DNA of 64,000 bases from an uncultured Rhodospirillaceae bacterium (lineage in GTDB: Bacteria > Pseudomonadota > Alphaproteobacteria > Rhodospirillales > UBA2165): positions 62,001 to 126,000 of the forward strand of contig CAJWAR010000003.1 in the NCBI GenBank assembly GCA_913020445.1, in the 5' to 3' direction. Shown here one piece after another: positions 5,940 through 42,803 of the stretch. A program made the translations under genes and the position numbers. Every line of letters starts with the position of its first letter. Within the stretch, counting starts at the first letter, position 1. Under the pieces are notes generated by a model that worked only from the letters and a program-made list of their open reading frames with translations, did no database searches and was not told the origin of the DNA.

Positions 5940-7167
5940 CGGCTTCGCCCTTTGATTTTCTCAAAGTGTCCGACAATATTTCTGCCAATTTTTCTGACTG
6001 TGATTCCCAGGTGAGTTTTTTTAATCCACTGTCGTCTTCGATATCGAAGTGACCGGTTTTTAAGCTTTGATCAAGCGCCGCCGAGATTTTCTCCGGGCTT
6101 TCACAAGAGAACAAAGGAACGACTGTTGACTGAGATATTTCAATTGCTTCTTTAGCCTCCTCGGGATAACAAATTAGTGGCCTTCCCGCTGATAGCATTT
6201 CAACGGTCTTATGATGAAAGGTGCGATTGCTTTTAATATATAAATTGGCAATCGCACTGCGATGAATTTGTCTCAATTCCTCAAAGGGGATGTAGCCTTT
6301 GATTTCGATCTTGCAAATTTTAGATAATTCTGAGGTTGCTGCCGCAACCTCCTCGGAATCTTGCCCAGCATAAACAAAACAAGCGTTAGATCGTTTTTCA
6401 TCTGGCAATCCCGCCAGCCATGATCTGACTCCTTGAATTAATTGATCTAAAGCCTGCCGGTCATAGATAGCGCCGGTAAGACTGATCGTAATATTATCAG
6501 AAATTGGCGTTGGCGATGGCGCTAATTGTGACGCGGGAAATCCACTATAAATAACAGCTGCTTGTGTCCCAAAGTATTTTTGGATGTCGGCGGCATGAAA
6601 TTCGGAAAAAGCCGTCATGGCTGCACTATCACTAAAATAATTGGCGAGATAACTTTGCAAAGCCCGCGGAATGAAAGTCTCCCAGGGGTCCTTAGCATCG
6701 GCAATCCAGGGACAATTTGCTGCCTGAGCGAGATCGCGGGCGATATTCCAGCAATCGGTATTACCGAAAGTCGCCCAAACAATATCTGGTTCAAAATATT
6801 CGACGATAGGCGGAATATAGGGCTGACTGCCGGCTCGCCAATCAGTGAATACACCGTGCTGCTGCCAGTAATACCAGACAACCACTGCTTGTCGAATGCC
6901 CCAGGGCAAAGTTTGGGCGCGTAGTTTTTTAATTAACGGATGGCCCTTTGGCTCGCTCGCCAAATTTAGCGGTGCACTAAAATCGTGATCTTGAATAACT
7001 CGGGCTACCCGGTCAGGAGGAATATCAGTTGGCTGATCCGCCAAAGTTTCGGTGAGTAAGATCACTTCATGTCCGAGCTTCGTAAGCACCTGACTAAATT
7101 CCCGCATTCTGGTGGCGCAAACATGCGGCGTTTTAGGATGACAGTGATTAACTAATACCACTCGCAT
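5932..7167 (-). CDS. Glycosyltransferase, GT-B fold, family 4-like
   Basis: 411 residues. The N-terminus (MRVVLVNHCHPKTPHVCATR, then LTKLGHEVILLTE) has the shape of the GT-B acceptor domain. The C-terminal half contains ISLTGAIYDRQALDQLI and the sugar-nucleotide-binding style segment HHKTVEMLSAGRPLICYPE, where the glutamate in VEMLSAGRP corresponds to the second Glu of the GT4 EX7E motif. It most likely transfers a sugar from a nucleotide donor to a lipid-linked glycan in the cytoplasm; donor and acceptor are unknown. The ATG shares bases with the stop of the upstream asnB-like gene (ATGA-type junction), so translation is probably coupled. Confidence 0.75.
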   Translation of the reverse strand: MRVVLVNHCHPKTPHVCATRMREFSQVLTKLGHEVILLTETLADQPTDIPPDRVARVIQDHDFSAPLNLASEPKGHPLIKKLRAQTLPWGIRQAVVVWYYWQQHGVFTDWRAGSQPYIPPIVEYFEPDIVWATFGNTDCWNIARDLAQAANCPWIADAKDPWETFIPRALQSYLANYFSDSAAMTAFSEFHAADIQKYFGTQAAVIYSGFPASQLAPSPTPISDNITISLTGAIYDRQALDQLIQGVRSWLAGLPDEKRSNACFVYAGQDSEEVAAATSELSKICKIEIKGYIPFEELRQIHRSAIANLYIKSNRTFHHKTVEMLSAGRPLICYPEEAKEAIEISQSTVVPLFSCESPEKISAALDQSLKTGHFDIEDDSGLKKLTWESQSEKLAEILSDTLRKSKGEADA

Positions 7168-39894: not shown

Positions 39895-40999
39895 ATGCGC
39901 GCAGAGATCGAGAGCCAAGTCAGCGAGATCAAGCAGTCTATCGAACTGCTGAGGAGGCGACTTTGACTATGACAAAGCTGCCCGGCGTGTCGACGAGCTG
40001 AACGCGCTCGCCGAAGATCCGAAATTCTGGGACGACCCCACCACAGCGCAAGGTTTGATGCGTGAACGCACCAAGCTCGAGACCGGCATTAAGGCAGTCG
40101 ATGAAATCACCGGCGATCTAAATGACAATGTTGAATTGCTGGAGCTTGGCGAGGCCGAAGATGATCAGGAGGTCGTCAAGGAAGCAGAAGACGCCATTGG
40201 CGCCCTAAATAGCAAGGTCGAAAAAGCCCGCATTCAGGCGCTGTTATCCGGCGAGGCGGACGGCAATGATTGTTATCTCGAAATCCATCCTGGCGCTGGA
40301 GGCACCGAGGCGCAGGATTGGGCTTCTATCATGCTGCGGATGTATACCCGCTGGGCCGAGAGCCATGGCTATAAGCTTGAATGGCTGGAAGAAAGTGCTG
40401 GCGAGGAAGCAGGTATCAAATCCGTGACACTCAGGGTCAATGGCACGGATGCCTATGGCTGGCTCAAAACCGAAAGCGGCGTGCATCGTTTGGTGCGCAT
40501 ATCGCCGTTTGATTCAAGTGCCCGGCGGCATACCAGTTTTGCTTCGGTTTGGATTTATCCCGTGATCGACGAAAACATCGAAGTAGAAGTTGAAGAAAAA
40601 GATTTGCGCATCGATACCTACCGGGCGTCCGGCGCGGGCGGGCAGCATATCAATAAAACCGATTCGGCCATTCGCATCACCCATCTTCCAACCGGCATCG
40701 TCGTGCAGTGTCAAAATGACCGTTCGCAGCACCGCAACCGCGCTGCCGCTTACGATATGTTGCGCGCCCGGCTGTATGAGGCCGAGCTGCAAAAGCGCGA
40801 AGATGAAGCACAAGCCCAGCATGACGCTAAAACCGATATCGGCTGGGGTCATCAAATCCGCTCCTATGTCCTGCAGCCCTATCAGATGGTCAAGGATCTA
40901 CGCACCGAGGTTGAAACTTCGAATACGCAAGCTGTGCTTGATGGTGATCTTGATGACTTTATGGCGGCCGCCTTGGCCGCTCGGATAGAGGGCGAGTAG
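39895..40999 (+). CDS. prfB: Peptide chain release factor 2, with programmed +1 frameshift
   Basis: The ATG at 39895 opens a 23-codon frame ending in CTT-TGA at 39961-39966. Reading past the T at 39964 in the +1 frame gives GAC TAT GAC and continues to 40999, for 367 residues in all, the normal RF2 length. The shifted protein keeps the codon-recognition domain and the GGQ motif ([15 protein letters not shown]). RF2 ends translation at UGA and UAA and limits its own synthesis through the in-frame UGA: when RF2 is scarce the ribosome shifts frame. The frame starting at 40055 is only the downstream part. Upstream is a strong terminator, so prfB should have its own promoter. Confidence 0.95.
39952..39967 (+). 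promoter_or_regulatory. prfB programmed frameshift site
   Basis: AGGAGG, three bases (CGA), then CTT TGA C. This has the same layout as the Escherichia coli prfB site: an internal Shine-Dalgarno-like sequence three bases before the slippery CUU and a UGA stop followed by C. The frames on both sides are coding and collinear with RF2, which confirms that the shift is real and not a sequencing error. Confidence 0.93.
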
Positions 41000-41114: not shown

Positions 41115-42803
41115 TTGAAAACAGTATTACTCGTCGAAGATTTGAAGTTCTCCCGCGTTGTCATTTCGCGAACCATTCGGTCCGTCAAGGATTGTACTAT
41201 CATCGAAGCCGAAAATGGTGAACAAGCTTTAGAGGCTCTGCGGAATAACAGCGAAATCAACGTGATCATTTCGGACATCATGATGTCATCGCCAAGCGGT
41301 CTGGAATTGTTGAAAATGGTTCGCGCCGGCAAAACTGCAGCTGACCGCGACATTCCATTTATCATTATCTCAGGGGCCATTACTGAAGAGGTACAGGACG
41401 CGCTTAATAACCTCGATGTCTCAGGCGCCATCTCCAAACCGGCAACCAAATCCAGTCTGACAGAAGCGTGGACGCAGATTGAGGCGGATATTCAAGCGGG
41501 TGGGCGTTCAATACGGCCAGAAACCGAGTACGATGCGATTCAGGTTTCGCATTTGCTGGAACCAGGTGCATTCGACGTTGCAAACCCATTGGATATCACC
41601 GATGACCAGAACAAGCTTATGGCATTTTTGGGCGCGGTTCCGGTCCTCGATAATCTGAACCAACGCGAGCTGGAATTGCTTAGCAGACAGGCCTACACGA
41701 TTCACTATTCTGGCGGTGAGGTCGTTGATGGTGAAGTGTTCGGTACTACACGCCTGCCGTTAATTTTCAAGGGTGAAGCCGAATTTCTACAATCGTCGCA
41801 GCTTCCCGATGGGAAAATCGTCGAACACCGGGTGGCCCTTCTCGAGGCCGGCAATGCGCTTGGGACATTCAATTTCATGAATCTAGCGGATGACTACAAG
41901 CACCCCAAAGTTCGGATAATCCGAGCAACAGACGTCGTCGTTCTGGAGTTCGACGATTCGGATCCGAATTCGGAATTGAGCCGAATTAAGGTCAAGGTAG
42001 AATCGATAATCGGACAGTTTCTGACACGACGCGTCACCTATGCCGACAAGGCGCTGGCCATGACGTTGACGCAGCAACTTGCGGAAACCAGGATTAAACG
42101 GACGGCTGGCGGTTACGTCATCATGATGTTCGTCCTGTTGGCGATTTACACCGTTGGCATGCGGATAATACTTGATATCGAGTTGAAGGGTTCGGCCCGT
42201 ACTATCAGTTCCGTGGCCTTGGTTCTGACCTTCCTGTTGCCTTTCATCATCATGCTGCGAAGCGGCTCAATAAAGGCTGTCGACCTCGGACTGACGTTCC
42301 ATGGTGCACGAGCCGCGACCGTTGATGCGGTGGTTATGTCTGCCATCTTTATTGCCGTGCTCGTCGGCTGCAAATTCCTCCTGGTGACATTCGTCGACGC
42401 ATTTCAAGGACAGCCGATGTTCGCCCTCTCCAAGGATTTCGCGCGCCTGACGCCGGCCGGTGGAACCGACTGGTTATTCTACGCAACCAACATCGCCATT
42501 TATGCGCTGTTTGTGCCGGTACAGGAAATCATCGCGCGCTGCGGCATTCAGTCACTACTGGTCGAGTTTTTATATGGATCGGACGCACGGCGTGCCGTTA
42601 TTGCCATCTTAGTGTCGAATTTCATTTTCGCCGCCGTCCACACCCATCTAAACGTCGGATTTGCCCTGGCCACTTTTTTCGGCGGATTGTTCTTCGGCTG
42701 GCTGTTTCATCGTAATCGGTCAATCGTCGGTGTCTCGATATCGCACATTATGATCGGGGGCGTGGCTCTTTTTGCGCTCGGCTTGGAGGAGTTTCTCAAG
42801 TAG
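41115..42803 (+). CDS. Receiver - cyclic-nucleotide-binding-like - CPBP membrane protein fusion
   Basis: 562 residues from the TTG at 41115, preceded eight bases upstream by GGGGGG; the longer frame from 41019 lacks similarity to a receiver start. Residues 1-120 form a response-regulator receiver domain with acidic Glu8-Asp9, phosphoacceptor Asp54 and Lys108. Residues about 165-290 look like a cyclic-nucleotide-binding or Crp-like beta-barrel (LNQRELELLSRQAYTIHYSGGE, then LLEAGNALGTFNF). Residues about 333-560 hold six to eight membrane helices with the CPBP/Abi layout: Gln470-Glu471-x3-Arg475 in place of EExxxR, Phe505-x3-His509, and His544. The first Glu and the last Asn-type residue are changed, so protease activity is uncertain. 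No sensor kinase is adjacent. Function unknown. Confidence 0.8.
   Translation: MKTVLLVEDLKFSRVVISRTIRSVKDCTIIEAENGEQALEALRNNSEINVIISDIMMSSPSGLELLKMVRAGKTAADRDIPFIIISGAITEEVQDALNNLDVSGAISKPATKSSLTEAWTQIEADIQAGGRSIRPETEYDAIQVSHLLEPGAFDVANPLDITDDQNKLMAFLGAVPVLDNLNQRELELLSRQAYTIHYSGGEVVDGEVFGTTRLPLIFKGEAEFLQSSQLPDGKIVEHRVALLEAGNALGTFNFMNLADDYKHPKVRIIRATDVVVLEFDDSDPNSELSRIKVKVESIIGQFLTRRVTYADKALAMTLTQQLAETRIKRTAGGYVIMMFVLLAIYTVGMRIILDIELKGSARTISSVALVLTFLLPFIIMLRSGSIKAVDLGLTFHGARAATVDAVVMSAIFIAVLVGCKFLLVTFVDAFQGQPMFALSKDFARLTPAGGTDWLFYATNIAIYALFVPVQEIIARCGIQSLLVEFLYGSDARRAVIAILVSNFIFAAVHTHLNVGFALATFFGGLFFGWLFHRNRSIVGVSISHIMIGGVALFALGLEEFLK

Follow-up and report, generated by a model that had tools for sequence, protein, structure and literature searches.

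A receiver joined to a Q-type CPBP membrane domain, a rare form within a group of CPBP proteins that have an altered motif pair and exchangeable sensors

The CPBP or type II CAAX proteins (Rce1-like, PF02517), among them MmRce1, the myxosortase MrtX, a CPBP protease (PMC11980579), and MrtJ, are defined by the motifs EExxxR, FxxxH and HxxxN. Several proteins with the same fold have roles other than CAAX proteolysis: DidK is an esterase (PMC10811503), LnsB is part of an acyl-transfer pair and is needed for lipoprotein N-acylation (PMC7387801), and the Gram-positive group includes Abx1 and SpdC/LyrA, SpdC being a CPBP protein without catalytic residues. The protein described here is encoded in a 64,000-nucleotide stretch of alphaproteobacterial DNA, referred to as a whole as the window. 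It shares FxxxH, the second Glu, the Arg and both His with the Rce1-like proteases but belongs to a group, here called Q-type, which has QExxxR and HxxxG in place of EExxxR and HxxxN, N-terminal cytoplasmic sensors and a lipid-gene neighbourhood. Abx1, SpdC/LyrA, DidK and LnsB also have the CPBP fold, but they lack any receiver or cNMP part and belong to separate lineages. Also close are the cNMP-CPBP proteins found in Alphaproteobacteria and in Legionella lytica (WP_252582690.1, whose annotation reads "cyclic nucleotide-binding domain-containing protein"), which have the same Q-type membrane domain and a barrel in the same position; these differ in having no receiver and an intact or nearly intact phosphate cassette, and most of the alphaproteobacterial ones lie in lipid-gene clusters. 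We propose, with a probability of about 45%, that the window protein is a phosphorelay-controlled Q-type CPBP membrane effector, that is, a response regulator with a membrane output, acting most likely in membrane-lipid remodelling.

The gene occupies positions 41115–42803 of the + strand, to which all feature coordinates below refer, and encodes 562 amino acids from a TTG start. The preliminary description had read it as a receiver, a Crp-like sensor and a CPBP domain in that order, and this proved correct, two of the parts being recognised by Pfam and the barrel by alignment and fold. The TTG codon, also proposed there as the N-terminus, is supported by two orthologues which open with MKTVLL or MKSVLL at the same position: L002 (JABILA010000112.1, from an alphaproteobacterial MAG, and the same protein as L091 of genome G580), a full-length orthologue with 77% identity, and L093 (genome G488), with 57% identity. 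The three parts and the start position are common to all three proteins, and the existence of full-length orthologues ruled out a chance or frame artefact for 41115–42803. Comparison with L002 gave an overall dN/dS of about 0.18, and no part of the gene exceeded about 0.3; we concluded that the 562-residue product is a maintained protein. Scans for promoters and terminators around the gene gave no clear signal. The spread of the receiver-type gene is patchy: no relative was found in 23 other genomes of the family to which the window belongs, eight of them from its own genus, a result that counts against the proposed reading, and the two genomes that carry the orthologues belong to another family of the same class.

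The C-terminal part, residues 330–562 (42102–42800), is a CPBP-type transmembrane domain. The claim of a CPBP/Abi multi-helix domain was borne out by a PF02517 match at residues 458–547 (E 5.1e-11; 43.2 bits against a cut-off of 22.4) and by an AlphaFold2 model with an Rce1 fold (pLDDT 88.6, pTM 0.86), which was built on an alignment of 26 sensor-linked relatives. The best PDB matches to this model were two chains of MmRce1 (4cad), with TM scores of 0.59 and 0.55, probabilities of 1.00 and 0.98, and E values of 0.15–0.24; a sequence search of solved structures with the membrane-domain profile gave no match. Alignments and a residue check placed motif 1, QEIIAR rather than EExxxR, at 42522–42539 (Gln470, Glu471, Arg475), motif 2, FAAVH, which fits FxxxH, at 42627–42641 (Phe505, His509), and the last motif, HIMIG, at 42744–42758 (His544), where Gly548 replaces the oxyanion Asn of HxxxN. 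The residues noted earlier, Gln470 for the first Glu and a third motif without its Asn, were thus as stated. The family alignments show no exception at Gln470, Glu471, Arg475, His509, His544 or Gly548.

The altered motif pair is not confined to this protein. Among 72 distinct CPBP domains taken from order, class and phylum samples, QExxxR was paired with HxxxG in 34 of 34 cases and (E/D)ExxxR with HxxxN or HxxxD in 38 of 38, and two further proteins, from the named organisms Legionella lytica and Azospirillum lipoferum, obeyed the same rule. In the tree a single branch (support 96/88; found in 97% of bootstrap trees) separated all Q-types from the rest. The data therefore do not support the idea that Q and G arose together several times independently; the pairing has been inherited, though retained over deep branches, and the two substitutions are one old event that has been kept since. 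The whole clade has the pair, and selection on the gene is purifying; Gln470 and Gly548 therefore do not reflect decay, and the idea of a single decaying protease gene was rejected. Of the earlier suggestion of a pseudo-protease or altered protease, the altered motif holds, whereas its supposed peculiarity to one protein does not. Most members carry an N-terminal sensor, most commonly a cNMP domain, otherwise a PAS domain (L069, L094) or, in three genes, a receiver with a degenerate cNMP domain. The receiver order, for which no described system had been known, is thus not isolated but one of three sensor arrangements. What emerges is a subclass of CPBP proteins in which the motif pair is altered, the sensor can be exchanged and the receiver form is rare. 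A literature search, of partial coverage, found no description of a CPBP protein with a cyclic nucleotide-binding domain or of QExxxR in connection with CAAX proteins, and the sensor-bearing Q-types apparently constitute an undescribed class. Sensor-less, stand-alone proteins also occur in the clade (L097, L103, L113, L115, L118, L119, L168 and L169); all of these except L097 were noted as alphaproteobacterial stand-alone Q-types with QExxxR or QExxxC and HxxxG.

Conservation of this kind bears on what the membrane domain does. A signal-controlled, true intramembrane endopeptidase would use Glu471 and His509 in place of the first Glu and cut a membrane protein after phosphorylation, and the fold, together with the invariant Glu, Arg and two His of the motifs, speaks for such an enzyme. 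The nearest NCBIfam models for the membrane domain are likewise those of sorting proteases such as MrtJ, although the MrtJ score of 32.8 bits is far under its cut-off of 75. Published accounts differ on the Glu that holds the water in MmRce1, one naming the first (PMC11980579) and the other placing water coordination on the second, E141, with H173 (PMC10811503), so that a hydrolase based on Glu471 is possible. However, DidK needs its first acidic residue for activity (PMC10811503), the adjoining genes showed no conserved candidate for a peptide substrate, and a standard endopeptidase mechanism is disfavoured because the whole clade lacks the first Glu as well as the oxyanion Asn; we regard an endopeptidase as rather unlikely. 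A non-catalytic scaffold, in which the Q-type domain would bind and regulate a partner membrane enzyme or kinase, has two precedents. One is APH-1, a homologue of CPBP proteins carrying QExxR and two His, which serves as a scaffold in gamma-secretase and is not a protease on its own (PMC6588880, PMC7387801, PMC7248309); the other is Abx1, which works via the CovS kinase independently of protease residues (PMC3578759). APH-1 resembles the Q-types by motif, having Gln-Glu in the first motif and two conserved His within a CPBP-like fold (PMC6588880), but it acts in a eukaryotic complex and has no sensor domain. Within the pocket, the Glu, the two His and the Gly do not vary across very deep branches, and the Arg hardly does, which exceeds what a scaffold usually needs, and we consider this explanation unlikely. 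Because the Gln-Glu motif is shared with the non-catalytic APH-1, the Q-type class may help to show how CPBP proteins leave proteolysis.

The phosphorelay-controlled effector that we favour depends on the two N-terminal parts. Residues 4–118 (41124–41468) form a receiver domain (PF00072, above the Pfam cut-off, E 1.1e-14) with a complete pocket consisting of the acidic pair Glu8/Asp9, the phospho-acceptor Asp54 (41274–41276), Ser86 and Lys108, in agreement with the intact-looking receiver described earlier from Asp54 and Lys108. In the full-length AlphaFold2 model, with a mean pLDDT of 72, the receiver section reached only about 50, a low confidence that counts against the proposal, while the barrel was mostly at 67–87. 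The Crp/cNMP-type beta barrel, at approximately residues 166–286 (41610–41972), gave no PF00027 match in a Pfam search of the 562 residues up to E = 1; even so, the earlier assignment of a cyclic-nucleotide-binding-like barrel stands, since the region can be aligned with cNMP domains that Pfam recognises in relatives, and the modelled barrel matches the cNMP folds of PKA-RI and PKG (Foldseek E 2e-6; TM by target about 0.66–0.71). Its phosphate cassette, residues 250–265 (41862–41909; GTFNFMNLADDYKHPK), is degenerate. In relatives without a receiver the cassette reads GE...R, with the Glu in 21 of 21 and the Arg in 19 of 21. Each of the three receiver-type proteins instead reads GT...K, both Glu to Thr and Arg to Lys having been exchanged. 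The receiver-type barrel probably no longer binds nucleotide, and because the two cassette residues are lost in all three orthologues the input has probably passed from the cyclic nucleotide to the receiver. That the barrel still senses a cyclic nucleotide or other small ligand, so that the protein integrates two signals, would agree with the retained fold and the 75% barrel identity between the two nearest orthologues, but is very improbable given the double exchange in 3/3 receiver-type proteins at positions which relatives without a receiver keep.

For phosphorelay control of the effector, the neighbours of the gene are informative. At the locus of the G488 orthologue (L124) the receiver-type gene is preceded, at a distance of 51 bp, by a same-strand Hpt gene; further out comes a divergent PAS-HisKA-HATPase kinase, and a CDP-alcohol phosphatidyltransferase gene lies downstream of the receiver-type gene; at the L002 locus (L125) there is a divergent REC-Hpt-HATPase gene, and a HisKA-HATPase kinase downstream. 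The window copy sits between prfB and a DUF455 gene with no adjoining kinase gene, which counts against the proposal. The absence of a kinase beside the gene, reported earlier, is therefore real for this genome, but both orthologues elsewhere do adjoin kinase or Hpt genes. A search of the rest of the window genome for genes closely matching the Hpt of L124 or the hybrid protein of L125 returned general two-component genes only, the best a 1001-residue frame on contig C25, and this too counts against the proposal. Of the two modes of control suggested in the preliminary description, phosphorylation is supported by the kinase and Hpt genes adjoining the other two receiver-type orthologues, whereas control by a ligand is made unlikely by the cassette loss.

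The association with lipid metabolism rests on the genes that surround members of the class. A tblastn search at E 1e-10 found at least one lipid gene beside 22 of 28 Q-type loci; the corresponding counts were 0 of 20 for E-type CPBP loci and 0 of 20 for stretches chosen arbitrarily from genomes that bear a Q-type gene. These counts describe a strong association and not a formal probability, since the queries were drawn from Q-type loci, which makes the count partly circular, and the loci are related. When only lipid families matched in more than one locus were counted, the number was 17 of 28, five of the 22 having depended on a query that matched its own locus alone. Three kinds of neighbourhood recurred beside cNMP- and PAS-type genes: (i) a B12-binding radical SAM gene together with a GT4 glycosyltransferase and, in many cases, an LpxH-like phosphoesterase; (ii) an MGDG/diglucosyl-diacylglycerol synthase-like glycosyltransferase, a second GT4, GalE, a fatty-acid desaturase, a cyclopropane synthase, a methyltransferase and a lipid kinase; and (iii) single lipid genes, encoding a CDP-alcohol phosphatidyltransferase, GDPD or TMEM164. 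In L127 the CDP-alcohol phosphatidyltransferase gene overlaps the cNMP-CPBP gene by 4 bp. The window locus is among the 6 of 28 without a lipid gene, and of the receiver-type loci only L124 has one nearby; both facts count against a lipid role for the receiver form.

In the mechanism we propose for the phosphorelay-controlled effector, a histidine kinase/Hpt phosphorelay would phosphorylate Asp54 of the cytoplasmic receiver, and the change would be relayed through the cNMP-fold barrel, which would no longer bind nucleotide, and then along a predicted 68-residue helix (residues 287–354, 41973–42176, in the AlphaFold2 secondary structure) that leads from the barrel into the first transmembrane helix. 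The polar pocket at Gln470, Glu471, Arg475, His509 and His544 would thereby be opened or closed. The cavity of MmRce1 opens to the cytosol (PMC7248309), and the sensors must be on that same side. In relatives, an intact cNMP domain or a PAS domain would drive the same membrane domain. The pocket would most likely act in glycolipid or phospholipid remodelling, either on lipids or on a protein of a lipid pathway, and we favour a lipid-linked role because the gene neighbourhoods of the class hold lipid genes; DidK and LnsB also show that ester or acyl chemistry is within the range of the CPBP fold. More tentatively, the Q-type proteins as a whole might be a separate class of lipid-acting, non-proteolytic enzymes switched directly, within the membrane itself, by a cyclic nucleotide, by a PAS ligand or, in the receiver branch, by a phosphorelay. 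If so, there would be post-translational two-component control of lipid remodelling. The protein stands for a clade of protease-like membrane proteins in which the altered active site is fixed, cytoplasmic sensors are built in and the link to lipid genes is strong, and it offers a testable route on which a phosphorelay could act on the membrane itself and not on transcription.

Several individual loci deserve description in their own right. In L142, L143 and L145 (and in part in L138, L140 and L146) a cNMP-CPBP gene is accompanied by GalE, an MGDG/diglucosyl-DAG synthase-like glycosyltransferase, a second GT4, a desaturase, a cyclopropane synthase, a lipid kinase and DUF6962; this conserved cluster is a probable glycolipid gene set in the taxonomic order of the window organism. 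A B12-binding radical SAM gene with a GT4 lies next to cNMP-CPBP in L128 (4525–6066), L133, L135, L139 (1696–3249), L147 and L149, where the radical SAM protein weakly resembles the PhpK P-methyltransferase, and a gene of the same radical SAM family adjoins the PAS-CPBP gene in L069 (2254–3726). In L150 a bacterial TMEM164-family gene (6035–6766; Pfam E 1.2e-50) shares 4 bp with the start of the cNMP-CPBP gene; its human namesake TMEM164 has been connected with the acylation of ether phospholipids. In L126 (1364–11335; contig C60 of G488) a cNMP-CPBP gene lies between a hybrid histidine kinase with Hpt and genes for a CDP-alcohol phosphatidyltransferase and inositol-1-phosphate synthase, possibly an inositol-lipid locus. 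In the window itself, prfB just upstream (39945–39970 and 40055–40999) retains the classic site of programmed frameshifting (AGGAGGCGACTTTGAC, CTTTGA at 39961), and the listed 314-residue open reading frame therefore lacks the true N-terminal part, which begins further upstream in another frame.
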